A stretch of 64,000 nucleotides of DNA. It comes from Synechococcus sp. NOUM97013 (lineage in GTDB: Bacteria; Cyanobacteriota; Cyanobacteriia; PCC-6307; Cyanobiaceae). A program made the translations under genes and the position numbers. The notes below the pieces were generated by a model, which made no database searches, was not told where the DNA came from, and was given only the letters and a program-made list of their open reading frames with translations. The stretch's first letter is position 1; each line of letters begins with the position of its first letter. Location: assembly GCF_014279815.1 (NCBI RefSeq), contig NZ_CP047941.1, positions 2,294,001 through 2,358,000 of the forward strand. Direction: 5' to 3'. This document shows, piece by piece, positions 17,277 to 49,694 of this stretch.

Positions 17277-17948
17277 TCAAGGGGTTGGTGGCGCAATCGG
17301 CGGAGCAAGAAAGTTCTGCGAATCAAACGTGGGTTGCGGTGTGCTGACGGGTTCGGACACGGGCAACACCTCTGATGGCCCTGAGTCCGCTTGAACCGGA
17401 GCCTCCATCACAGGAGTCGTCGGGAAGCCAGCATCTGTCTCCTGCACTGCAGGTTCGAGCGTTGGAGAGAGCGGAGTGCCTGGATCGGGCGCCATTGTTT
17501 CCGCCGCCGCCGGCAAGGTCACAGATGCTGGATCCTGCAGCTGCTCTGCTGTAACCGGCAGCACAGGGGCCGGCTGGGGGCTCAAATCGAGAGCTGGCTC
17601 ACGCAGAGCCGCCTGCTGCTGTGTCTCGCGTTGTTCAGCTTCTGCAGCAATCGCCTCGGCCTCACCATTGATCTGGCGCTTCTCTGCATCCCGGGCTTCC
17701 TTGGCCGTCACATCACCCATCAAGGGCTGATCGGCCCCATACAGACGCCGCAGGGAATCGAGGGACTGCCCGGGAAAACTACTTTGTTGAAAGGATGCTT
17801 GCTGCGTGCCCTGCTGACCTTGGCGCAGCATCACGATGCGCTGCGTGATGCCATAGCCCAAAGCGAAGCAAGAGCCGGCCACCAGAGGTCCCACCCAGAA
17901 CCGAGGGCGCTTGGGCCGCTTCTTTTCAGCGTTTCTGGTGGTACTCAT
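17277..17948 (-). CDS. Single-pass membrane protein of unknown function
   Basis: The 223-residue protein has a basic N-terminus (KKRPKRPR), one membrane segment (about 18-36, FWVGPLVAGSCFALGYGIT) and a long Gln/Pro/Glu/Thr-rich periplasmic tail of low complexity. I do not recognise a domain. The GC-rich base composition matches the housekeeping block and changes sharply just upstream of this gene, where the AT-rich lanthipeptide region begins. Confidence 0.68.
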   Translation of the reverse strand: MSTTRNAEKKRPKRPRFWVGPLVAGSCFALGYGITQRIVMLRQGQQGTQQASFQQSSFPGQSLDSLRRLYGADQPLMGDVTAKEARDAEKRQINGEAEAIAAEAEQRETQQQAALREPALDLSPQPAPVLPVTAEQLQDPASVTLPAAAETMAPDPGTPLSPTLEPAVQETDAGFPTTPVMEAPVQADSGPSEVLPVSEPVSTPQPTFDSQNFLAPPIAPPTP

Positions 17949-18410
17949 ATCAGATCCCGATTGATGAACACCGAGCCGTCGAACGCCCCCATTCTCACCC
18001 CGAATTAGGCTTAGTGCCGCTCAACGTCATAGATCGCGAGTAGCGACAGGCAACCTCTGTGCTGTCACGACCAGCAACGAGACGCCAACTACCCACTCGG
18101 TAAAAGCGAGATCCGGACAGAAACGAGTAAAACCAAAGCTGAGAACCGTTCGGCCAAAAACAAGTATTCAACCCTGACGCTCAATTTACATTATGAATCG
18201 ACTACATATAACACGAACAATAATCGTCAAACCTTTAGTATCTCGGAGCTATGCGCAACCAGGCAGGCTACGAATCAAGGCAAGATTAAAAATAGAATAA
18301 ACCCATAAGTGTTAAAACCAATATAAAGAAAGCATTAACCCCAAAAGCCAAGGAAAACACACTGCGTAGCATGAAATTGCACAGCACAACTACTTACACG
18401 AGCGCTTGCC
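17949..18410. other. Intergenic stretch, left edge of the AT-rich insert
   Basis: About 460 bases without a credible gene. The sequence changes from GC-rich to AT-rich within roughly its first 100 bases. It must hold the promoter of the precursor gene, but I could not fix a convincing -35/-10 pair. I see no tRNA, insertion-sequence end or direct repeat that would explain the insertion. Confidence 0.5.
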
Positions 18411-19022
18411 ATGAGTGGTTCACCGCAAGATTTTCTCCAAGCCGTATGGAGCAGCGATGCTTCAACCCAAGAATTTGCAAATAATCCAAAATCGTTTATG
18501 GAACGCTTTGGATTCAGCTACGGAGAGAACGTGAGGGTCATTCCTCATTTTGACAATGAAACCAGCGTAAATTTAGTAGTCCCCGAAAGCACTCCCGAGG
18601 TCGAAACTGCAGCTCAAGGCAATGCCGACCCAGCAATCAATACTTTAGTCAAAGCCAGCAAGGATGAAGCTCTTAAAAGAGAATTACTCGAAAACGGAAA
18701 AACAACTTTAGCCAATAATGGAGTACCGGTCATTTCAGGGATCAATTACCAAGTATTTGCAAACACCGCGACAGAGATGCATGTCGTAATTCCGACCAAT
18801 CCAGCGATAGCGCAAGCAAATGCAGAACTGGAATTGGCAGCTGGAGGATTGAGCCAAGGCGCCAAGTGTGGAGTCGGCGCTGGAGGTACTACGGTGGCTT
18901 GCGGCGCAGTTGCAATTGGCCTTGGTATCTTTAGCACAGGAGCCACAGCTGCAATAGCCGGCGGCACATCTGCCGTAGCAGCTGGTGGAACTGGCATAGG
19001 CTCAGCTGTTGCCAGCGGCTGA
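18411..19022 (+). CDS. Lanthipeptide precursor with duplicated NHLP leader
   Basis: The 203-residue peptide has two copies of a nitrile-hydratase-like (NHLP) leader: residues ~6-60 ending in SVNLVVPES and ~75-131 ending in EMHVVIPTN. Both carry an Asp-start helix, an N-P/G-K turn and a valine-rich strand. The cleavage signal ELAAGG ends at residue 146, leaving a 57-residue core. The core has Cys153 and Cys164, Ser148 and Thr160/161 at good spacing for two thioether rings, and about eight further Ser/Thr. It is otherwise Gly/Ala/Val/Ile, with a single charged residue (Lys152). It is followed by a strong terminator and the lanthionine synthetase gene. The class II assignment comes from that neighbour. 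Confidence 0.85.
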   Translation: MSGSPQDFLQAVWSSDASTQEFANNPKSFMERFGFSYGENVRVIPHFDNETSVNLVVPESTPEVETAAQGNADPAINTLVKASKDEALKRELLENGKTTLANNGVPVISGINYQVFANTATEMHVVIPTNPAIAQANAELELAAGGLSQGAKCGVGAGGTTVACGAVAIGLGIFSTGATAAIAGGTSAVAAGGTGIGSAVASG

Positions 19023-19087
19023 ATCCAGAGCCGAAAGAAATACTTTTCCAAAGACGCATCAACCTAAACACAAAACAAACAAACCAT

Positions 19088-19136
19088 GTTGCCGAAGACT
19101 CTTTTAACAAGAGGCAATACTTCGGCAACATTTTTT
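19088..19136 (+). terminator. Strong intrinsic terminator after the precursor gene
   Basis: GTTGCCGAAG (19088-19097) pairs exactly with CTTCGGCAAC (19120-19129), extended inside by CTCTT/AAGAG, followed by ATTTTTT. It should uncouple precursor transcription from lanM, allowing excess precursor. Confidence 0.88.
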
Positions 19137-19604
19137 GTTTAAGCTTCAAGAAAAAAGCGAACCAATAAAAAAGGTCGGATCAACGTGCAATAGCAAAGGC
19201 AGGTCCAGCAAAACCTTCAATGCCAATTATTCATTCCTTGGGGTCGCTGAATCATCTCGGCAGAGTCAAGCGAATCAAAGGCACACCTTCAACTTATAAA
19301 ACTCCAAACAAGACAGCCAAGGAGAGCAGCCATCACACTCACAGCTATCAGCCCTTGAATCCCAAAACATTCAGCTTAAAACCCGACAATAGTACACAAA
19401 ATTAAACTAGCTGCCCACACTAAAACAACCAGCTGGCACGATCAACCAGGTACTGACAATATCCTCCAATCAGAGCATCTACAAACCAGCAAATTGTCAC
19501 AAGTTGACTTTAAATTGCGCGACAAATGCTGCAAATACCGCTCAACCCCAAACATGACAAATTCATTTTGCGAACTATAATAATAATGCCAGCATAAGCA
19601 AGAC
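19137..19604. other. Intergenic stretch upstream of lanM
   Basis: About 470 AT-rich bases. A 61-codon frame at 19220-19405 has a Lys/Ser/Thr/Asn-rich product with no recognisable leader or GG motif, and I do not count it as a gene. The lanM promoter must lie here; TATAATAATAATG-like sequence near 19575-19588 is suggestive of a -10 region but also of chance AT-richness. Confidence 0.45.
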
Positions 19605-22600
19605 TTGATCGAAGAGATTGTTGAAATCGCCCAAAGGGCATCAAATATCCGTGAGCGCATTGCGCATTATCGGTCACGAAAGCATTGCGCATATGACCCA
19701 CAAGGCAAATACTATTCAGATGAATTCATAAAAAACCTTACTCCTGAGACTCAGAATGAAAACCTGTTGAGATCTCGACTTCAATATCTAGCCATTCATA
19801 AAGATGAGCTTGTTGAGGCCTTTAGTTGCATGCCAATTTACTCATCATTCACCCTGCCAAAATGGGCACAAACGCTTTTAGAAATAATGAGTACTTATGA
19901 ATTAAATGAATGCAAGCCAAAAGAAATTAGACATCAAACAGAAGACGGATTCTTGCTGTTTCCAAAACTACTGGCCCCATTCACAAACCACTTCGACAAA
20001 AACTTAGAAAAATTACTGGCGGTGTACCCCTCAATATTTGAATTACAAGCAATCCTGGATTTAAAAACTGAACTTCTCATTGAACTATCAGAGGTGACAG
20101 CGAGGGTCGTCAGCACAGAACTGTCAATGAAAAAATATTTTTACGAGAAAAATAAACCAACACGAGAACCCAAAGAAAGATATCAAGACTACATGGATCA
20201 ATTTGTCGACAATCCGCAGCAACACATCAGGCTTTTTCTACGCTATCCCGTTTTAGCGCGTTTACTATGCATGATATGTTCACAAACGCTGGAAAATCTT
20301 ACAACATTTGCACATCGCTTTGAAAGCGATCGCTCTGAGATCGCAAAATACTTTAAACCAGAAAAAACTTATGAAAAACCAGATCTTTCAATCATCAGGC
20401 TGTCATTTACCCATTCCGACCCTCACAACCAAGGCCAAAAAGTCTGGAAGGTCACAACCAATCATTCCTTCTCATTAGCGTACAAGCCAAGAAGCTTTGA
20501 TATTGACAAAGCTTACGCCGACATCATTAAGTGGTATAACAACGGAAGCCAACATCAATCTTTAAAAACAGCTCCTTTTATCTCAAGAAAACATTATGGG
20601 TGGACATTATGGATTGACACGAACAGAAGCGTAGCGAGTCGGAAAGAAGCCAGTGATTACTTTCAACGACTTGGCGCACATTGTGCGATACTGTTTTTGC
20701 TTAACGCGACAGATTTTCACGAAGAAAACTTCATCATCCAACAATCCGATCCAATTCCAGTCGACCTAGAGACAATTGGATCAAGTTGCATGTCGTATTA
20801 TACGCCAGAGAATACTTCTGACCTGCCATTTTATCTTGAGTCGTTATCACTTTCAATCCAAGCACTAGGCGCTTACCCACGTTGGCTTCAAAATAAAAGC
20901 GCAGGGGCACCGGCCATAGCACTCGGGGGCTCAGCCGGTCGTCAATCCATTGACAACAATACGCTTGTCATTCGTTGGAATCAGGTTGGAACTGCGGATT
21001 TAAACTATCAATATGTGGAAGGACCTGTTGGTTGGATATCACTGTCTCCTCAAATCAACGGCGAGGAGCAAAAATTAGTTCACTATATTGAAGACTATTT
21101 GGCAGGCTTTGAAGATGCATATTTACATTGTTTAGAGAACAGATCTTTTCTCTTGAAGTCAAAAGAGTCCCCATTTTTGGCATTCGACGGACTCAACACA
21201 CGCGTTGTGCTTCGCAATACACAAGAGTATTTTGATCTCCTACAGCCAGCAACCTCACACGACATCCTTACAAGTGGCCTGGCTTATTGTACTTTCCTAG
21301 AAAAGATATGCCACAGACAACTGGGCAATTATGCACATAATCTCTATTTCACTTCAGAATCAGAAGCAAATTCACTATTTTCCCGAGATATTCCGTACTT
21401 TTCAGGAAGAATTGGAAGGACAACTGCTGACGGTCAAACGGAAAAACCCTACGGAAGCAACGATCCCAAAGCATTCACCTATAAACTTAAAATTGCCAGT
21501 CAAGCCAAGCTTGAAGACTATAAACAGCAGATCAAATCGATATTTGGTTCCTACCAACAATCTATCGAACCGCCTGCGCTATCCGTTAAAGCAACACAAG
21601 CGCCACAAACGAACAAAGACATATTAATCAAAGGAGTGCGCAATCTCACAGATCTGTTTCTCAACTCAATGGTGACCATTGCTGGCTTCAATGGTTGGTA
21701 TAGCGTTTACTCTTACAAGCAAAATCCAACTATATCCTACAGATTTCCACTCCCCTGGACGAGTGCGGGTACTGCAGGAACATCCATATTTTTAAACAAT
21801 GCAGCAACTATGCTTAAAGATTCGAGTTTATCTACATTAGCCGAAAAATTATCAGTGAACTCATTGAGTGAGCTCATAAAGAACTTTGGATTAGCCGATC
21901 AATATTCAATTGCACTTTGCAAGGGGCTTGAAGGAATTGCATCACCAATTTATGCCTGTTTGTGCGCGCATCGGCTCTCACAATCCGAAAGAGCTTTGGA
22001 GCACGCGGCAGATTTTATTGAAACGATGGGCACAAACTATAAAAACATAAAATTGAGAGATTTATCTCTTATCTCAGGAGCCTCCGCAGACTTAATTGTA
22101 TTAAGTGAACTATATCAAAGGACTCAACGACCTCTTTTAAAAGAGATTATCAATGTTTTGGCCATGAAACTTGTAATGGCACTTGAATCTCTGAATTCTT
22201 TTTTAAACACAAATCCACAACTACAACCCATAGAGCCAGGAGTTGCCCATGGCATCTTTGGAATTTTATTGGCAATCGATAGGGCTAATGATGTTGAACC
22301 GAAAGACATTTATCGATCAGTCATTCTTCACTATGGATACAAGGAAATGAAACGGTACCTTGATCAACCCAACGAACGTGATGAGCGCTTTACAGGCTGG
22401 TGTCGTGGACCCGCTGGTGAAGGCCTTGCAATTCTTGATAACCAACTCCTGCTCAATTCTCACCTATCAATGATGACAAATGATTATATTGACACAACAA
22501 TAGAGCTCACGAAAAGAAGTCTCGGCCAAGATTTTGCCCATCTTTGCTGTGGGGAGTCTGGTCGTTTGATTTTTTTAGCAACAGCTGGTGAACAGCTAAA

Positions 22601-22802
22601 TCGCCCTGAATTATCAGATTTAGCTGTCAACCAATCAGTTAATCTGCTAAGGCAATATGAGGATACAGGATATCTGATGATGCAATCTATTACATCGAGT
22701 TGCCTAGTTCCTGGATTACTAGATGGACATGCCGGCATTGGCCTTGCCTTATTAAGTGTTCTTCACCCAAAATCAACATCCAATTATTTATGCCTGCGAT
22801 GA
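19605..22802 (+). CDS. lanM: Class II lanthipeptide synthetase LanM, ProcM-like
   Basis: This 1065-residue two-domain enzyme dehydrates Ser/Thr in a precursor and joins them to Cys. The dehydratase half keeps the kinase-like site: D272 and H274 in SDPHNQGQ, K294 in LAYKPRS, D370-H372-N375 in ATDFHEENF and D387 in PVDLET. The cyclase half keeps H882 (GVAHGIFGI) and zinc ligands C933 (GWCRGPAG) and C981-C982 (HLCCGESG). The CCG in place of the usual CHG is the feature of ProcM-type enzymes that process many prochlorosins. The only N-terminal start in frame is TTG 19605, 19 bases after an in-frame stop. The stop overlaps the next gene (ATGA). Confidence 0.93.
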   Translation: MIEEIVEIAQRASNIRERIAHYRSRKHCAYDPQGKYYSDEFIKNLTPETQNENLLRSRLQYLAIHKDELVEAFSCMPIYSSFTLPKWAQTLLEIMSTYELNECKPKEIRHQTEDGFLLFPKLLAPFTNHFDKNLEKLLAVYPSIFELQAILDLKTELLIELSEVTARVVSTELSMKKYFYEKNKPTREPKERYQDYMDQFVDNPQQHIRLFLRYPVLARLLCMICSQTLENLTTFAHRFESDRSEIAKYFKPEKTYEKPDLSIIRLSFTHSDPHNQGQKVWKVTTNHSFSLAYKPRSFDIDKAYADIIKWYNNGSQHQSLKTAPFISRKHYGWTLWIDTNRSVASRKEASDYFQRLGAHCAILFLLNATDFHEENFIIQQSDPIPVDLETIGSSCMSYYTPENTSDLPFYLESLSLSIQALGAYPRWLQNKSAGAPAIALGGSAGRQSIDNNTLVIRWNQVGTADLNYQYVEGPVGWISLSPQINGEEQKLVHYIEDYLAGFEDAYLHCLENRSFLLKSKESPFLAFDGLNTRVVLRNTQEYFDLLQPATSHDILTSGLAYCTFLEKICHRQLGNYAHNLYFTSESEANSLFSRDIPYFSGRIGRTTADGQTEKPYGSNDPKAFTYKLKIASQAKLEDYKQQIKSIFGSYQQSIEPPALSVKATQAPQTNKDILIKGVRNLTDLFLNSMVTIAGFNGWYSVYSYKQNPTISYRFPLPWTSAGTAGTSIFLNNAATMLKDSSLSTLAEKLSVNSLSELIKNFGLADQYSIALCKGLEGIASPIYACLCAHRLSQSERALEHAADFIETMGTNYKNIKLRDLSLISGASADLIVLSELYQRTQRPLLKEIINVLAMKLVMALESLNSFLNTNPQLQPIEPGVAHGIFGILLAIDRANDVEPKDIYRSVILHYGYKEMKRYLDQPNERDERFTGWCRGPAGEGLAILDNQLLLNSHLSMMTNDYIDTTIELTKRSLGQDFAHLCCGESGRLIFLATAGEQLNRPELSDLAVNQSVNLLRQYEDTGYLMMQSITSSCLVPGLLDGHAGIGLALLSVLHPKSTSNYLCLR

Positions 22803-23887
22803 ACCCTTTTTCAAACATCGATCGTGTAGAAACAATCTCGCCAAAAAACTTTTTTGATGATTATATTCTTCCCGCAAGGCCTTTAATCATCGAAGATAGT
22901 TTATGCGGTAGAGCTCTGCATTCGTTCGCCCACAAAGCGAGGCTTCCAAAACGCTACCTCCATAGCTTGATACCACTTTCTTATGGGTTTGGAAATTTTT
23001 TAGATCAGCAAAATAGAGCCTTAACGGAAGAAGAAAGTGCGGCAGTAAAGTCGCCTCCTTGCGTCACCTTGTCTGATTATTTAAATGAATATCAAACCGA
23101 AAAATTTTCGGGACTCTATTGCAATGAGGTGGCTTTGCCGAAAGCGATTCTCTCTGACTACTCGAGACCAAAACTGACGGAACTTGGCTTGCTTGATGAT
23201 GTTGATTATCGATTCTTTGTTGGAGGAGAAAAAAACTATGCACATCTACATTTCGACGGCGACCTAAGACATGTTCTTTTTCATCAATTGCTAGGGGAGA
23301 AGACAATTGTTTTAATCCCCATATCTTCTACTGATAAACTTTTACCAGTAGCGCATTGGTCAGGGCACTGTCTTCAAAATTTTTCGAATCAAGAGCTGAA
23401 TGATTTTGTTCACTATGTAGGTGGAAGCTGTATCAAACTTTCTGCAGGTGAGACACTTTATTTCCCGGCTGGAATTTGGCATTTTGTTCGCTACGAGTCG
23501 TTATCCATCTCCATCGCATGCCGATTTGGACGAACCCAAAAAATTAAGTTTCTTGGTAACAACGTCCACAAAAATGACGAGTTTCTGAAAATATTCTCAC
23601 AGTTATCCGCAAGTCAATATTCGAACTCAAATGAGTTTTTCGAGGTGGTAACTGACAACTTAATTAAATCGTATTCACTATTTTCGGCGAGCTCGTCGGA
23701 AAAGGTGAGTCAGATGAATCAAGCTTACAGATCAATCGCTGCACAATACGGCAGAAGCAAAAGTGAATTATTCTTGCCCTTTTCCAGCGAATTTTCTTTG
23801 GCAATACAATCTTTATACGAGAGCAAATACGCCCAACACGTCGATCAAATGCTTCGAGAAAAGATGGGATGGATTAGTGCTTCGTAA
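22799..23887 (+). CDS. Cupin/JmjC-type Fe(II)/2-oxoglutarate hydroxylase, coupled to lanM
   Basis: The 362-residue protein fits the cupin_8/JmjC-like hydroxylases: H151 and D153 (HLHFDGD) and H228 (YFPAGIWHFVRY) are the expected iron ligands, and K168 in GEKTIVLIPI matches the 2-oxoglutarate-binding strand. Family members hydroxylate protein side chains. The ATG at 22799 overlaps the lanM TGA, giving strict coupling; an ATG at 22790 is the alternative. I infer that it is a tailoring enzyme of the lanthipeptide. The C-terminal third (about 250-362) is helical and unassigned. Base composition is AT-rich like lanM. Confidence 0.83.
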   Translation: MNPFSNIDRVETISPKNFFDDYILPARPLIIEDSLCGRALHSFAHKARLPKRYLHSLIPLSYGFGNFLDQQNRALTEEESAAVKSPPCVTLSDYLNEYQTEKFSGLYCNEVALPKAILSDYSRPKLTELGLLDDVDYRFFVGGEKNYAHLHFDGDLRHVLFHQLLGEKTIVLIPISSTDKLLPVAHWSGHCLQNFSNQELNDFVHYVGGSCIKLSAGETLYFPAGIWHFVRYESLSISIACRFGRTQKIKFLGNNVHKNDEFLKIFSQLSASQYSNSNEFFEVVTDNLIKSYSLFSASSSEKVSQMNQAYRSIAAQYGRSKSELFLPFSSEFSLAIQSLYESKYAQHVDQMLREKMGWISAS

Positions 23888-23966
23888 AAGGCTTTTAGAG
23901 AAGCATGAAATATGGATATCCAACGTAAATGCACTTTTGATGCAAACCTCAAATCTAGAATTAAAA

Positions 23967-23997
23967 TCTTGAAAAAACGCGAAATTCAAGACTTTTT
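23967..23997 (+). terminator. Weak terminator-like hairpin at the end of the lanthipeptide operon
   Basis: TCTTGAA (23967-23973) pairs with TTCAAGA (23985-23991), followed by CTTTTTC. The stem is short and AT-rich, so termination would be modest. Confidence 0.4.
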
Positions 23998-24104
23998 CAC
24001 TGAGTGAGCTATCGCTGAAGCAAAACGCTTTAATTACGCAGTCGCCAATCATGAGTTTTGACTTTTGCCCATGGAAACGGAGACATCCCACCTCCAACAG
24101 ATTT

Positions 24105-25355
24105 CTAGGTCGTGTAATCGGCGTTGATTCGCACGTATTGATCCGATAGATCACAGCCCCAGCCGGATCCAGAGCCTGGCCCCGTGCCGACATTCAGACG
24201 AATGACGACGACGTCATCGTCCAAATAACGCCCACAAGCCCGCTCGCTGAGATAGATGGAGGCCGCCGAGCGATCGAAAGCGAGGGGCTGACCATCGGCC
24301 ATCAGCTGGTGGTCACCGATCCAGAGGGCAACAGCGTCAGGGTCAAACAACACACCGGAACGCCCCGCCGCCGCAACAATCCGACCCCAGTTGGGGTCTC
24401 TGCCATGCACGGCGGTCTTGACCAGCGAGGACCCGCAGACCGTGCGAGCCATGTGCACAGCGTCCTGGTCGCATGAAGCTCCCTGCACCTGCACCTCGAT
24501 CAGACAGGTGGCTCCCTCCCCATCGCGGGCGATAGCACGCGCCAGATGTTGCGCCACCCGGGTCAAACCCTCCTCTAACGCTGCATAAGCCGTGTCTGGA
24601 AGCGCTTCACCAGCGGCAAAGGCCAACACCGTGTCATTGGTGCTGGTGTCGCCATCGACCGTGATGGCATTAAACGATCGCCGTACAGCTCGCTGCACCA
24701 TTCCCTGCCACACATCAGCGGGGACCCCGGCATCACAGGTGAGGTAGCCCAGCATGGTGGCCATGTCGGGATGGATCATCCCCGATCCTTTGGCCATGCC
24801 CCCAAGCCGGACCCTACGCCCAGCCAGGGTGGCTTCCAAAGCGATCTGCTTCTCCACCAGATCGGTGGTGAGGATGGCACCAGCAGCGGCAGCTCCACCC
24901 TCGGGATCCAAAGCGTCCACGAGCGGGTCTAAGCCACCAAGCAACACCTCCATCGGGATCGGCACGCCGATCACACCTGTGGAGCAGATCAGCACCTGAT
25001 CAGCGTCGACACCCAAACGATCTGCCAGGGCCTGCGTCGCACGCTGACTGTCAATCAAGCCGCGATCACCCGTGCAGGCATTCGCCTGTCCGGAATTGAT
25101 CAGCACCGCTCGGGCCTGGCCTCCAGTGGCGAGCAAACGTTCAGCGCAAAGATCCACGCAAGCGGCACGCACCACCGAGGTGGTGAAGGTGCCGGCACAG
25201 ACCGCACCCTCTGGCGCCAGAACAAGTGCAAGATCCGGCTTACCCGACGCCTTCAGCCCGGCCGTGATTCCGGCACCAAGAAAGCCGGTGGGAGCGGTGA
25301 CGCCTCCCTCCACCACCATCCACTCAGAGGAAGCCCTGCTGTTGTCGGCAACCAC
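24105..25355 (-). CDS. argJ: Glutamate N-acetyltransferase / N-acetylglutamate synthase ArgJ
   Basis: ArgJ transfers acetyl from N-acetylornithine to glutamate in arginine synthesis and is made as a self-cleaving precursor. Visible are GGVTAPTGFLGAGI, FTTSVVRAACVDLC, VLINSGQANACTG, STGVIGVPIPM, GGMAKGSGMIHPDMATML (cleavage before the Thr), ITVDGDTSTNDT, CGSSLVKTAVHGRDPNWGRI and the C-terminal Y-V-R-I-N-A-D-Y-T-T. The start is uncertain: GTG 25355 gives 416 residues with 11 before the conserved Trp, ATG 25319 is shorter, and ATG 25397 would overlap the divergent coaE start. Base composition returns here to GC-rich. Confidence 0.95.
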   Translation of the reverse strand: MVADNSRASSEWMVVEGGVTAPTGFLGAGITAGLKASGKPDLALVLAPEGAVCAGTFTTSVVRAACVDLCAERLLATGGQARAVLINSGQANACTGDRGLIDSQRATQALADRLGVDADQVLICSTGVIGVPIPMEVLLGGLDPLVDALDPEGGAAAAGAILTTDLVEKQIALEATLAGRRVRLGGMAKGSGMIHPDMATMLGYLTCDAGVPADVWQGMVQRAVRRSFNAITVDGDTSTNDTVLAFAAGEALPDTAYAALEEGLTRVAQHLARAIARDGEGATCLIEVQVQGASCDQDAVHMARTVCGSSLVKTAVHGRDPNWGRIVAAAGRSGVLFDPDAVALWIGDHQLMADGQPLAFDRSAASIYLSERACGRYLDDDVVVIRLNVGTGPGSGSGWGCDLSDQYVRINADYTT

Positions 25356-25395
25356 GGATCCACGCGAGACACTGGTGTCATCCTGCCGCCGCGTC

Positions 25396-26046
25396 ATGTC
25401 TCGCCAACGCCGCATCGGCCTGACCGGTGGAATCGCCTCCGGTAAAAGCAGTGTGAGCCGCTGGCTGGCGCAGCAAAACGTGCCTGTCTTGGACGCCGAC
25501 CAGTACGCCCATGACGTCATTGCCCCGGGGGAGCCCGCCTGGCAGGCCGTGATCGATCGCTACGGCAGCGCAGTCCTGCATCCAGGATCTGACCCGACAC
25601 AACCTGCTTTAAACCGTGCAGCACTCGGCAGCATCGTCTTTGCGGATGCTCAGGAGCGGCGCTGGCTGGAGGGGCTGATTCACCCCGTCGTACGAGATCG
25701 CTTCGAACACGAACTGTTGAAACTCAGCAATGAGCCGGTTGTCGTGCTGATGATCCCACTTCTGTTTGAAACAGGGATGGCATCAATCTGCAGTGAGGTG
25801 TGGGTTGTGAACTGTTCACTCGAGCAACAACGTCAAAGACTCATGGCACGCAACGCCTTGAGTGCACAAGCAGCCGATCAGCGAATCCAAGCCCAGTGGC
25901 CCCTGACCCGCAAATGTGAACTCGCTGATGCAGTAATCAACAACAGCGGCCCCCCACAACGCTGGCGAGCTCAGATTCGTGGGCTTTTAACGCCATCAAC
26001 ACAGCAAGCTTCCGCATCAACTGACGCGATGAATGGCCATCAATAG
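25396..26046 (+). CDS. coaE: Dephospho-CoA kinase
   Basis: The 216-residue kinase phosphorylates dephospho-CoA in the last step of CoA synthesis. It starts MSRQRRIGLTGGIASGKSSV with the P-loop GGIASGKS, then DADQYAHDVIAPG, LNRAALGSIVFAD, HPVVRDRFE, VLMIPLLFETGM and a lid-type segment with SAQAADQRIQAQWP. It is divergent from argJ, with start codons only about 40 bases apart if argJ begins at 25355. Confidence 0.95.
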   Translation: MSRQRRIGLTGGIASGKSSVSRWLAQQNVPVLDADQYAHDVIAPGEPAWQAVIDRYGSAVLHPGSDPTQPALNRAALGSIVFADAQERRWLEGLIHPVVRDRFEHELLKLSNEPVVVLMIPLLFETGMASICSEVWVVNCSLEQQRQRLMARNALSAQAADQRIQAQWPLTRKCELADAVINNSGPPQRWRAQIRGLLTPSTQQASASTDAMNGHQ

Positions 26047-44410: not shown

Positions 44411-46066
44411 ATGTTTCCTCTCTTAGCCCAACTAGTCGCACCTCCGATCCAACCCGGACCAGCACGCATACCTGAGCGACAGAGTCCTGCTGCAAACGAT
44501 GACGCCATTCAGTTAGAGGTGGAGGATCAAAAAGAAGAACAGAATGAAAGCGAAATCAATGAGCAAAGCGATGGACAATCGATCGAATTAGAGGGTTCAT
44601 CCCCATACAATGCTGAAAGAACAAAGCAAATCCTGAGAAACTGCGAATTATCGGTCGACACCAGCCTCGAAAACAGCTGCGTCAATCAACTCAATGCTCA
44701 GTTGCAAATAGATGGATACATCAATACACGCGTCGTTGCCGAGGAAATCGATGGACAGGTCAAGTTGATCATCATTCCTGGTAAATTAGTTGAAATCAAT
44801 GTCAACTCTAAAAATGAAGAGCTTGCCAGAGAAATCAAAGATAAATTAGCCCCACTTCTTGATCAACCCTTTAACATCATCCAAATCAAAAATGCACTGC
44901 TGAATCTGGAGCGCTTGGGAATCGTCAGCAGCCTCTCAGGAAGTATTGGGAAACTAGGCAGCAATCCAACGAAAGCAACACTAAACATCACAGCGGAAGT
45001 CGCAGCAAAACCATGGCGAGGGCTGTCGTCCGTTCGGAATGATGGAAATGCGGGGAGCGGCGAGTGGAGAGGCTTAGCTGTCCTGCAAAAATCAGATCTC
45101 TTCGCTCGAGGCGATCAATTTCAATTTTATGGAGAATTAAATATTGACCGAGACCCAGAACTTGGTGCTGGCATTGGCTCCATCAGCTATACCTACCCGT
45201 TATCCCGAACATGGGGAGTGACAGGATCTTTTGGCGCGAGCAGGCGCTATCTGGTTGAATATCCAAAACCATTCCGCGATTTAAGCTTTAGACAATATCA
45301 GGGATTAATCCAGACCGATTGGACCTTTTTAGAAACTGAATCAACGAACACCTATATTTTTCTCGGAGTAAGTGCAAACCACAACAATAGTTACTACAAA
45401 AATGAGACGTTCCCAGTTATCGCCGGTGGAGGAATTGATGGAGACCTAACCAGTGGATATGCTCGCATCGGTCTTGGGCATCAAGGTGCAAGAAATTCAC
45501 TGTCTTGGACGGGACAGATCTATGCACTACAGGGGATCAATTCATTCAGCAGCCCCGATGAACTGAATAACCTCAAAACACTTGGAATTCAACCAAGTAG
45601 TGCACAAGCAGTGGGCGCTTATGCAACAGGGCTCTGGGCCATCGATCGGAACTTGATTGCAAAGGCTGTTGCTGGAGGACAATATGCATTCAACCCTTTA
45701 ACCAGCAGTATGGGATTTGGCGTCGGCAGCGACAACGGCTTAAGAGGGTTGCCCGGAACCTTGATCAGTGGTGACAACGGTTGGATCAGCAACTTAGAGT
45801 TGGAATGGTCATTCCTAAAATTAAAAAATAACCAGTTCAAACTTGTCCCTTTCGGAGGGGCGGGAGGAATTACGACAACACGTCTGGGAGAAACATTCAG
45901 CGACACAATTGGTTCCTATGGAATGCTATTGAGATGGCAACATAAAAATCAACTCGTTGTTGATCTTGGTTGGGCGAGTCAATTCAATACGGATGACAAT
46001 GAAGGACTGTGGAACGACTGGATTATTGGTGACGGAATTTACTCAAAGGTGACATTCCAGTTTTAA
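44411..46066 (+). CDS. Two-partner secretion transporter TpsB (FhaC/ShlB type), pair 1
   Basis: The 551-residue protein has an acidic linker (about 25-70), POTRA domains (about 70-205, with LQIDGYINTRVVAEE and ALLNLERLGIVSSLSGSIG) and a C-terminal 16-strand barrel ending in Phe. Barrel landmarks include WRGLSSVRNDGNAGSGEWRG, GSISYTYPLSRTWGVTGSF, GLRGLPGTLISGDNGW and WNDWIIGDG. It exports a TpsA exoprotein across the outer membrane. The N-terminus MFPLLAQLVAPPIQPGPAR lacks a charged n-region. It is tail-to-tail with the CHAT exoprotein gene, 10 bases apart. Confidence 0.88.
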   Translation: MFPLLAQLVAPPIQPGPARIPERQSPAANDDAIQLEVEDQKEEQNESEINEQSDGQSIELEGSSPYNAERTKQILRNCELSVDTSLENSCVNQLNAQLQIDGYINTRVVAEEIDGQVKLIIIPGKLVEINVNSKNEELAREIKDKLAPLLDQPFNIIQIKNALLNLERLGIVSSLSGSIGKLGSNPTKATLNITAEVAAKPWRGLSSVRNDGNAGSGEWRGLAVLQKSDLFARGDQFQFYGELNIDRDPELGAGIGSISYTYPLSRTWGVTGSFGASRRYLVEYPKPFRDLSFRQYQGLIQTDWTFLETESTNTYIFLGVSANHNNSYYKNETFPVIAGGGIDGDLTSGYARIGLGHQGARNSLSWTGQIYALQGINSFSSPDELNNLKTLGIQPSSAQAVGAYATGLWAIDRNLIAKAVAGGQYAFNPLTSSMGFGVGSDNGLRGLPGTLISGDNGWISNLELEWSFLKLKNNQFKLVPFGGAGGITTTRLGETFSDTIGSYGMLLRWQHKNQLVVDLGWASQFNTDDNEGLWNDWIIGDGIYSKVTFQF

Positions 46067-46076
46067 TAGTCTGCTA

Positions 46077-49000
46077 TTACCAGGGCGTACCAAGCAGAAT
46101 AAATCCAGACCAAAAGAATGGATGTCGAAAGTCGCTTGGATAATTATATTTCTGCGATGCAGACAGACCCGACAAAAGGACATCACCGGCTTCGAAAACA
46201 ACGTCTGAACCTTCAATCTTGATTTTTCCCGAAGCGAAGTCGCGCTGGGTCTGCGTCAACGCGGTCGATTTAGACACTCCACGACTCAAATAGCGATAAA
46301 ACTGTGAGAAGAATGCTGAAGTAGCCAAATCATCCACATACCAAAGGGAACCAATGGCACTCTTGGAACCAGCTTGAAGAGCCAAGCCAGCAAGACCCAT
46401 TTCACTATCACTGTCGCCTAGAGCACTACGACAAGCGCTGAGAACAAACAAGTTGATAGGATTCAATTCTCGATTACGACGTATCGACTTGAAGGCTTCA
46501 AAAGAAATTGAGCCATCAATTGTATAAATCATTGATTGATCAGGACTTCCTCCTTTGAAATCAGCATGGGTTGCCAAATGAATCAGAGACTCATTCGATG
46601 AACGTAAATCTGAAACAGCCCTCGATGAAGTGAACTGTTCTCCAAGCACAGATTGACCACCATAATATTGACCAATATTTTCAACTTCTTGATTCACATA
46701 TGGAAGCGGGGATAATTCCGAAAACTGGGTGGAGCCCATGATCAGAATTCGATCCAGTTCAGAATTTGCCAGTGGTATGGATAAATCAGTGAGTGATAGC
46801 GAAGGTGTAAACGAGAATGAAAGGTTTTCAACAGTGTATTGTCCTTGTCGGGCAAGCGCAGAGAAAGGAATTGCTTGTAGACCACGGTCAGCGGAAACTA
46901 AGACAGTTGTGATTTTTTCGGTGGTCATCACATCCTGAAGCGGCTCAAGAAACAATGAATACAGCCGTGATGCTTCTGATGTTTGAAGAGCAGGATCTAA
47001 TGAACGTTGACTGGTAATTTTTCCATAAAAACCACGCAGAAGATTTGAAAATTCTGCGACAGGAAGCTCTGTACGTCGACCAGTCACGGTTCCATCTGAT
47101 GTGATCAAAGTAAGATCAACAAACCCCTTCGCAGAATCACCCACACCAAGATCAGAGTTTTGGGTAAATGAAATATTTAAAAAAGCAGGGTTAAACTCTG
47201 ACTCGGATGAGCTTGAGCTGATGAAAGCACTGTTACTAGAGAGCTCACTGGCAATGATCGATGTCGATTGGTCCAGTGCAGAAATACTTAGGGACTGATA
47301 AACCTGACGTGCATCATTCAAACTTTGGGAAATGCGTGCCGGTGTCAACTCGCTGGCAGGAATAGGGCTGATGTCATCAAGACCGAGAGCCGAAAGCACC
47401 TCTACCGTATTGGAATCAATCGAATCCCTCAGATTTGAAGCAACAACATTTGCATCAATGGTTGAAATCTGGAAGGAAGGAGCTGATGAGTCTCCGGGCT
47501 CACTGGAGGTTGATTCACCCGATTGTGAATCAGAAGCGTCTTCATTCGTCGCCGTAGTGGATGCGTTTTCATTGCCACCTTCATCAGTAGAACTCTCAGC
47601 ATTGGATTCAGATTCGGAATCCGAACTGGTCTCGGCAGCTGATTCAGAATTCGATCCTGTTGCACTCGTGCTGTCTCCATCCGACTCAGAGGAAGAGGAA
47701 GATGAAGATGAAGATGAAGATCCATACAATGACGATTGTTGTGACGAAGAAGATGTGTCTGAAGAGGAAGTCTCTGGGCCAAGAGAGCCTGAATCTTGCG
47801 TCGAACCACCTAGTGAAATATCAACTAAACCACTCTCACTCTCATTTGTAGACGCAATGATTAAATCATTAGCACTATCCACCACCAGACCTTCGTTGTC
47901 AGACATGGTCGTGGAGTCAATCAGCGCATCATTACCAACATCAATCACCACAAGCTCATTACCACTCACAGAAGATTCTGATATCGCAACATCAAAATCA
48001 GCAACAAAGGCAAGCTCTTGATTATTAATAAACTCGGAGTTAAAAACATCAATATTACCCGTCAGCGCCGCAGCCTCAAACACACTCTCATCAACATTCG
48101 ATCCCAAAACAACAACATCACCCTCAGAAGAAATAGCGAGAACGTCGCTCCCGATCACTTCAGAGCCTGCAATCGCTGCATCACCCGTTTCAGAGCCCAC
48201 ATCGGCCACGGTATTCACAACGCTCGAATCAACGATGCCTGAATCGCCATCGGTGGAAACAACAACAACATCAGTATCAACGACATCAGAATCAACGATG
48301 GCAGCATCACCAGATTCAGAGACAACATCCAAAACATTGCTGCTTGAATTTGAATCAATAATTAATGCATCACCGTCGGTAGATCGCACGGTGGCGACAT
48401 TATTTAAAAGGTCTGAGCTGACAATCTTTGCGTCTCCTTGCGGAGCACGAATCAGCAGATCATTGCCTTCAACCAAAGAGTTGAAAATCACAGCATCGCC
48501 CTGCAGAGCTTGAAACACGAGATCATTTCCAGCCACGGAAGAACTCAAAAAAGTGGCATCAGCAAAGGCAGTGACGTCAAAGTAAGCATTGTTAGACAAC
48601 GCTAAATTGTCAAACGTCACATTACCCTCAATTGACTCCAAGTAAGGATAGAGATTATCCAAGAAATCAGAATTAGTAATTAAAAGGTCAGACGTGGACG
48701 AGATCAATGTGAAGGGACCATTGAGGTCAAAACTTGAATCATCAATATCAATCATCCCAACAGCTTGAATCGTGAAGAAAGGCAGTGCATCAACAACTTC
48801 AAAGCTGGACAGAAATTGCGAGCTTGTGTACGGCAAATTCCCAATCAGATCGGAACCAAAAAATACAAAATCGGCACCACTATCAATGGTCACACTCGAA
48901 TTGCCGCTAATACTTGAATCAACAATATCGATATCACCAAATTCTGTGTAGAGCGAGATCAACGAATTATCGTCAAGTATTGAGTCAGCAATTGAAAGCG

Positions 49001-49694
49001 TGCCACCAACATCAAGAGTAGACGATGCATTGAGGACCGTATTCGAGACTGTTAAATCAGAATTTGCATGCACATACAACGAGCCATCAACAGAGAGCGT
49101 GATGCCACTAATGGTGATCGGGGAATTGGACGCAACAGTTGACAAGCCTGGATTTGTACGGCTAAGCACTGGTGAACCAGTCAACAATTCAACTTCACTT
49201 TTAGTTGAATTAACCGAAAACTGTCCTACACCGATCGGGAATGCGGAGAGATTAGCAAGCGTCAGATCAGTAACATTGGAGAAGGAAGCACCTGTTGATA
49301 AAGAAACGCCATCAGGGGAAACAATGAACAAGTTGGCATTCGAGTCAAGACTCAAGGGAACACTAAGATTGAAGCCGTTGGATGACGAAGCCACTCCAAG
49401 AATGACGTTGCTCTGGGAGTCTGTTTCAATTGTCACTCCAGATATGGAAGACTCGGAAGTTCTATTTGCATCAAACAAAGTGAAACGATGAAATTTATTC
49501 GAGCCAGCATCGGTTCCACCACTAATGGCACAAACACCCGAAACGCAGGACTGTGTACCAGACCCGCCATTAATGGATGTCTCAAACCGACCTGACGTTG
49601 CAATCTGCGACCTTGCTGGCTGGGCTGCGGAAGCAATCAAAGCAAAGGGCAGCCCAAGAGACAAAACAATCCGCTTACAAGGAAAGCCAGTCAT
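46077..49694 (-). CDS. TPS exoprotein (TpsA) with C-terminal CHAT protease domain, pair 1
   Basis: The 1205-residue protein has a signal peptide (1-30), a filamentous-haemagglutinin-type TPS domain (about 31-190, FIVSPDGVSL and VILGVASSS) and a long run of ~20-residue beta-helix repeats of the form GDA-x-I-x-x-S (about 210-640). A Ser/Glu/Asp/Thr linker follows (about 650-760), then a CHAT caspase-like domain (about 930-1205). The catalytic pair is H1043 (LATHADF) and C1088 (VLSACRS). The C-terminus HPFFWSGFILLG is typical of CHAT proteins. I infer an exported, self-contained protease. The gene is AT-rich compared with the second copy. Confidence 0.88.
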   Translation of the reverse strand: MTGFPCKRIVLSLGLPFALIASAAQPARSQIATSGRFETSINGGSGTQSCVSGVCAISGGTDAGSNKFHRFTLFDANRTSESSISGVTIETDSQSNVILGVASSSNGFNLSVPLSLDSNANLFIVSPDGVSLSTGASFSNVTDLTLANLSAFPIGVGQFSVNSTKSEVELLTGSPVLSRTNPGLSTVASNSPITISGITLSVDGSLYVHANSDLTVSNTVLNASSTLDVGGTLSIADSILDDNSLISLYTEFGDIDIVDSSISGNSSVTIDSGADFVFFGSDLIGNLPYTSSQFLSSFEVVDALPFFTIQAVGMIDIDDSSFDLNGPFTLISSTSDLLITNSDFLDNLYPYLESIEGNVTFDNLALSNNAYFDVTAFADATFLSSSVAGNDLVFQALQGDAVIFNSLVEGNDLLIRAPQGDAKIVSSDLLNNVATVRSTDGDALIIDSNSSSNVLDVVSESGDAAIVDSDVVDTDVVVVSTDGDSGIVDSSVVNTVADVGSETGDAAIAGSEVIGSDVLAISSEGDVVVLGSNVDESVFEAAALTGNIDVFNSEFINNQELAFVADFDVAISESSVSGNELVVIDVGNDALIDSTTMSDNEGLVVDSANDLIIASTNESESGLVDISLGGSTQDSGSLGPETSSSDTSSSSQQSSLYGSSSSSSSSSSSESDGDSTSATGSNSESAAETSSDSESESNAESSTDEGGNENASTTATNEDASDSQSGESTSSEPGDSSAPSFQISTIDANVVASNLRDSIDSNTVEVLSALGLDDISPIPASELTPARISQSLNDARQVYQSLSISALDQSTSIIASELSSNSAFISSSSSESEFNPAFLNISFTQNSDLGVGDSAKGFVDLTLITSDGTVTGRRTELPVAEFSNLLRGFYGKITSQRSLDPALQTSEASRLYSLFLEPLQDVMTTEKITTVLVSADRGLQAIPFSALARQGQYTVENLSFSFTPSLSLTDLSIPLANSELDRILIMGSTQFSELSPLPYVNQEVENIGQYYGGQSVLGEQFTSSRAVSDLRSSNESLIHLATHADFKGGSPDQSMIYTIDGSISFEAFKSIRRNRELNPINLFVLSACRSALGDSDSEMGLAGLALQAGSKSAIGSLWYVDDLATSAFFSQFYRYLSRGVSKSTALTQTQRDFASGKIKIEGSDVVFEAGDVLLSGLSASQKYNYPSDFRHPFFWSGFILLGTPW

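Follow-up and report, generated by a model that had tools for sequence, protein, structure and literature searches.

A low-GC island in Synechococcus sp. NOUM97013 likely encodes a minimal proteusin-lanthipeptide cassette with a double-leader precursor

A 6.2-kb island of low GC content in Synechococcus sp. NOUM97013 holds three genes, encoding a lanthipeptide precursor of the nitrile-hydratase-like leader (NHLP, or proteusin) family with two copies of its leader, a class II synthetase (LanM) and a Cupin_8/JmjC-type Fe(II)/2-oxoglutarate oxygenase. We consider it likely that they constitute a horizontally acquired minimal proteusin-lanthipeptide cassette, with a product that would be modified by LanM and the oxygenase and matured via a host exporter; the cassette itself is real and probably functional. 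The sequence shows which genes are present, the duplicated leader, the intact catalytic residues, the island with its empty site and the resident exporters; ring topology, hydroxylation site, export by the host and a role as a bacteriocin-like or membrane-active peptide are inferred. The ingredients are individually known, and their combination (a double leader, a LanM and a Cupin_8/JmjC hydroxylase) appears to be new. The features are as follows, in coordinates of the window, that is, the whole 64,000-nucleotide stretch analysed.

17277-17948, minus strand: 223-aa open reading frame (ORF) flanking the island
17954..24108, no strand assigned: low-GC island, 6.2 kb, three genes (GC profile; empty site in genome G013)
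18411..19022, plus strand: NHLP (proteusin) lanthipeptide precursor, 203 aa (ORF call, TIGR03793 profile)
18411..18620, plus strand: leader copy 1 (aa 1-70), degenerate, ending EVETAAQG with no intact GG (TIGR03793, shuffles, structure model)
18621..18848, plus strand: leader copy 2 (aa 71-146), ending ELELAAGG, with predicted C39 cleavage after G146 (TIGR03793, match to PDB 8tb1)
18849..19019, plus strand: core peptide, 57 residues (aa 147-203), Gly/Ala-rich, with Cys153 and Cys164 (composition, hydropathy)
19086..19137, plus strand: intrinsic-terminator-like hairpin with a T run, directly following the precursor gene (-21.6 kcal/mol, z -5.4)
19554..19581, plus strand: promoter-like site before lanM, 11 of 12 consensus positions (promoter scan; weak, the scan giving overall no more sites than shuffles)
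19605..22802, plus strand: class II synthetase LanM, TTG start, 1065 aa, zinc ligands C933, C981 and C982 (CCG type) (profiles, alignment, tree)
22799..23887, plus strand: Cupin_8/JmjC-type Fe(II)/2-oxoglutarate oxygenase, 362 aa, with H151, D153, H228 and K168 (Pfam, JMJD5 alignment)
24105-25520, minus strand: argJ, the other flank of the island

The GC content of the island is 0.42, compared with 0.57 in the rest of the window, and the profile drops from about 0.6 to about 0.41 across 18.0-24.0 kb. In the closest species (G013, locus L173), the flanking DNA is 85-90% identical and its two sides lie only about 85-93 bp apart, which identifies the 6.2 kb at 17954-24108 as an insertion. The same two flanking genes occur together in 19 of the 26 other argJ-bearing genomes of the genus, and no match to the precursor was found in 30 other species of the genus. 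Neither direct repeats at the island ends nor a recognisable integrase ORF within it were seen. The island also lacks an exporter, a protease and a recognised immunity gene, which we count against reading it as a cassette. The flanking ORF at 17277-17948 is itself fast-evolving, Pro-rich and membrane-anchored in appearance, with 33-71% identity in sister species.

The precursor scores 65 bits as a whole protein against TIGR03793, the nitrile-hydratase-like leader model, in two separate matches; this exceeds the curated NCBIfam cut-off of 50.9 bits and places the protein among NHLP precursors. No further NHLP ORF was found in the 2.55-Mb host genome, and the prochlorosin-type Nif11 leader model (TIGR03798) gave no match in the precursor at E values up to 10.

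The earlier note had described two leader copies ahead of a single ELAAGG site, and had suggested a profile search and a structure prediction for each half. Both halves match TIGR03793: copy 1 alone (aa 9-62) with 21.7 bits (E 1.4e-4), and copy 2 alone (aa 79-146) with 46.6 bits (E 2.3e-12). A direct BLASTP comparison of copy 1 with copy 2 returned no match; their global alignment was better than 4971 of 5000 shuffles (29 score higher). When scored on a model of 50 single leaders, copy 1 reached 11.8 bits, compared with 9.6 for the best of 5000 of its own shuffles. AlphaFold predicts an HHH-EE fold for copy 1 (pLDDT 78) from an input alignment that included 23 leader relatives, so that this model is no independent evidence of homology. 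Its top two Foldseek neighbours in the PDB, 8tb1 (E 0.016, probability 1.00) and 9cjx (E 0.53, probability 0.66), are both solved proteusin precursors. Copy 2 matches 8tb1 by sequence (E 1.9e-5); the HHH-EE leader fold is thus assigned to copy 1 by model and to copy 2 by sequence match. Profile, shuffles and the copy 1 model confirm the duplication as first described. A single-sequence AlphaFold prediction of the full precursor reached a pLDDT of 41 and was set aside.

The GG-type motif ELAAGG occupies aa 141-146, directly before the variable core, and cleavage is predicted there. Since copy 1 ends in EVETAAQG and copy 2 in ELELAAGG, one intact GG site is left, and by its sequence copy 1 looks like a whole leader with a decayed GG site. 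Two details of copy 2 count against the cassette: position -4 of its GG site is Ala instead of Val, Ile or Leu, and the usual LxxxxL leader motif lacks its first Leu.

Copy 1 may be an inert relic, with copy 2 alone guiding LanM and export and the duplication without function. We give this a substantial chance, a little short of even, and it is compatible with the rest of the cassette reading. Copy 1 is degenerate, at 21.7 bits, and has lost its GG; a single leader suffices in most proteusins, and in one proteusin the brominase SrpI does without a whole folded leader half (PMC10858898). However, the model of copy 1 retains an NHLP fold and finds the correct PDB neighbours, and double leaders recur among other cyanobacterial precursors, one of them adjoining a LanM gene. 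A more tentative and rather unlikely proposal is that the leaders form a scaffold with two docks, in which LanM is recruited by one leader and the JmjC-type hydroxylase (or another LanM molecule) by its partner, while the long hydrophobic core is held and modified. NMR and binding work has shown that a single NHLP leader offers separate surfaces to different enzymes (PMC10858898, PMC12455567). If correct, a two-dock precursor would represent a leader architecture undescribed in the proteusin literature examined, and would bring with it a pairing of LanM and a JmjC-type hydroxylase. Direct descent of the double architecture from a nitrile hydratase alpha subunit, whose two profile-like halves lie about 73 aa apart, would dispense with a leader duplication and is suggested by the similarly spaced double matches of such subunits, but is improbable: both copies score highest on the single-leader model, models of the hydratase halves give copy 1 just 2.1 and 6.9 bits, copy 2 fits the Pfam hydratase profile in its first half and not in the collinear second half, and the metal-binding Cys are absent between the copies.

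Double leaders are rare but not unique. A 238-aa NHLP ORF of Amazonocrinis nigriterrae (L153:6726-7442) is LanM-linked and, like the island precursor, has its NHLP leader in duplicate, ahead of a LanM gene; it differs in its core (four Cys, charged), no Cupin_8 gene was found with it, and its LanM falls elsewhere in the tree. A further double leader belongs to a YcaO/SagB-type cluster, seen on a Nostoc plasmid as well as in genome G398. Fused tandem TIGR03795 precursors are known in Delftia and Acidovorax (PMC2887384), and our literature search found no description of tandem NHLP leaders before a single core. Apparent double-leader ORFs of four other cyanobacteria (G044, G337, G199 and G035) were discarded: they resemble alpha-type subunits of nitrile hydratase or thiocyanate hydrolase and adjoin their partner genes. 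Nitrile hydratase alpha-type subunits (L078, L079, L080 and L081) contain an internal pseudo-repeat with two NHLP matches about 73 aa apart, a trap in mining for double leaders. A separate case is a 246-aa protein (L082:8221-8961, G304) with two strong NHLP domains and no GG core, beside several FAD-oxidoreductase-like genes.

The core had been described as 57 residues long and nearly uncharged, with two Cys, about a dozen Ser/Thr and one Lys, and as free of Asp, Asn, His, Arg, Pro, Tyr and Trp. Its composition (G16 A14 T6 S5 V5 I4 L2 C2 Q1 K1 F1) bears this out: there are 11 Ser/Thr, Lys152 is the sole charge, all of the named residues are missing, and so are Glu and Met. The predicted hydrophobic, Gly/Ala-rich character also holds, as the hydrophobic fraction of 0.78 is the highest among about 45 LanM-linked NHLP ORFs examined, in which the core ranks second in length. 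The most hydrophobic 21-residue window spans residues 162-182 (mean hydropathy 1.81). Because the core contains two Cys, at most two thioethers can form, as the earlier note had also concluded; judged by the usual spacings, the rings would most likely join Ser148 to Cys153 and Thr160 or Thr161 to Cys164. No family in Pfam or NCBIfam covers the core, and weak matches to Ssp4, Tla3_C and DUF6436 were dismissed as low-complexity noise. A Gly/Ala-rich core with a strongly hydrophobic stretch around 162-182 is also what a class II bacteriocin-like pore-former would present, un- or hardly modified and with lanthionines minor or absent. This is improbable, since the same island holds a complete LanM with conserved active-site residues, the two core Cys have Ser/Thr well placed upstream, and no family model matches the core. 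Long cores are found beside other LanM genes as well: a single-leader NHLP precursor (L040:521-949, G074) has a 55-residue, Gly/Ala-rich core of similar style, and a marine gammaproteobacterial one (L096:7410-7919) has a core longer still, of 76 residues.

The island LanM clears its profile cut-off of 304 bits with 473.6 bits and contains the dehydratase and LanC-like cyclase domains (TIGR03897, PF13575, PF05147). Residues D272, H274, K294, D370, H372, N375, D387, H882, C933 and C981, conserved in nearly all of 104 LanMs, are kept, and C982 is as in most of the 104. By its domains and its catalytic and zinc residues, the protein reads as an intact class II enzyme. It is an orphan: no LanM aligned, among the matches listed, exceeds 25% overall identity to it, and its branch is the longest in the tree; we count this status against the cassette reading. 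No close LanM and no second copy of the cassette were found in 386 cyanobacteria, in 400 genomes of the family or in the best 80 loci listed in a GTDB pattern scan, and no close relatives were found for any of the three proteins, precursor, LanM and oxygenase. A pairing in the tree with a Desulfobacter LanM (L092) joins two long branches and is distrusted; the Desulfobacter genes form a fatty-acyl/GNAT-type cluster that contains no cupin.

The host has a lanthipeptide apparatus of its own: two NHLP-type C39 exporters, a resident LanM and 28 Nif11-leader matches. One operon (G000:C1:772344-783014; L088:4345-15014) encodes a TolC-like protein, an HlyD protein (TIGR03794), a C39 ABC exporter (TIGR03796), a second ABC protein (TIGR03797) and the resident LanM (1123 aa, 749 bits), just 20% identical to that of the island. 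The second NHLP-type exporter (G000:C1:1525018-1530889; L089:6019-11890) consists of HlyD, C39 ABC and ABC genes, with no obvious modifying enzyme adjoining. The exporter-less cassette would most likely use a resident exporter. The 28 Nif11-leader matches, and the link between CCG-type LanMs and promiscuity (PMC10783134), could suggest that the island LanM and hydroxylase mainly serve Nif11-leader precursors of the host in a promiscuous, ProcM-style manner, which we find unlikely given that the host already has its own LanM and exporter, that the island brings its own precursor of a different leader family, and that the two LanMs are only 20% identical.

The oxygenase gene starts within the lanM stop codon (ATGA overlap, 22799). 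Its product scores 42.2 bits against Pfam Cupin_8 (gathering score 27.4), and its HxD...H iron triad, H151/D153/H228, together with a Lys, aligns to JMJD5, in accord with the hydroxylase gene that had been proposed to be coupled to the precursor. The best cyanobacterial relative (L086) lies in a RiPP cluster with YcaO, TfuA and Lant_dehydr_C genes, and other relatives adjoin NRPS genes. Given these relatives in RiPP and NRPS clusters, and its position, the island cupin is likely a peptide-tailoring hydroxylase. It is the only Cupin_8 gene found at the LanM loci examined. The relative's own locus (L086:1188-7268, G054:C64) contains, besides TfuA, YcaO, Lant_dehydr_C and Cupin_8 genes, a 155-aa Nif11-like ORF recognised by eye, and possibly makes a thioamidated RiPP with a hydroxylase.

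PoyI hydroxylates polytheonamide at Val24, Val32 and Asn38 (PMC10373908); in phaeornamide, an NHLP/LanM product, PhaI hydroxylates an ornithine (PMC9505594). Because these enzymes act on Val and on ornithine, the five core Val and Lys152 are both reasonable targets, and by this analogy the missing Asn, Asp, His and Arg are not an anomaly. The earlier note had restricted the hydroxylase to Lys152, Gln149, an aliphatic or aromatic side chain or the leader; the restriction is too strict in view of the Val hydroxylation by PoyI, while Lys152 stays a candidate and aliphatic side chains had been named.

In the maturation route that we propose, the folded NHLP leader or leaders would allow recognition of the ribosomally made precursor. 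LanM would dehydrate part of the 11 core Ser/Thr and link Cys153 and Cys164 with dehydro residues upstream of them; what remains would be a long Gly/Ala-rich tail of hydrophobic character with additional dehydro residues. The oxygenase would hydroxylate the peptide, most likely at an aliphatic side chain (one of the five Val) or at Lys152, and a resident NHLP-type C39 ABC exporter would cleave after G146 and export the product. The hairpin after the precursor gene and the promoter-like site before lanM, if active, would give precursor in excess of the enzymes.

The phaeornamide cluster (PhaA/PhaM/PhaI/PhaR/PhaN), which makes a proteusin selidamide, shares an NHLP precursor, a class II LanM and an Fe(II)/2-oxoglutarate hydroxylase with the island (PMC9505594), the hydroxylases being likened by enzyme class; as a characterised precedent, it supports our reading of this gene combination. 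Unlike that cluster, the island lacks genes for an arginase, an acyltransferase and a transporter, and its precursor has a double leader and a 57-residue, nearly uncharged core. The polytheonamide (Poy) proteusins likewise combine an NHLP leader, a long hydrophobic core and LanM-type dehydratase chemistry (PMC9505594, PMC10373908), and have an Fe/2OG hydroxylase acting on Val, comparable by enzyme class to the island oxygenase. In contrast to Poy, the three-gene island contains no radical SAM epimerase (PoyD) and no C-methyltransferase, its LanM has a cyclase domain and its core has Cys; a genome search with TIGR04517 (PoyD-like epimerase), run without a positive control, gave no match. NHLP precursors beside LanM were described by Haft in 2010 (PMC2887384), with the same TIGR03793 leader with GG and an adjacent LanM; their cores average 26 residues and no tandem leader was described, whereas the island has two leaders, 57 core residues and a Cupin_8 partner. 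Prochlorosins and synechococsins (ProcM/SyncM) are also class II lanthipeptides of marine picocyanobacteria with a CCG-type LanM, but carry Nif11 leaders where the island precursor is NHLP.

With two leader domains, one of them degenerate, and two enzymes, the three-gene system offers a simple testbed for the role of each leader part. It would pair a JmjC-type peptide hydroxylase with an intended core nearly devoid of classical targets, making aliphatic hydroxylation directly testable, and would be a case of transporter-less RiPP genes entering a host that already owns two suitable exporters. Elsewhere in the window, a second low-GC stretch (44411-49694), read by eye, encodes a two-partner-secretion-type barrel protein (44411-46066, plus strand) and, facing it (46077-49694, minus strand), a 1205-aa Ser-rich repeat protein with an apparent C-terminal CHAT protease domain.
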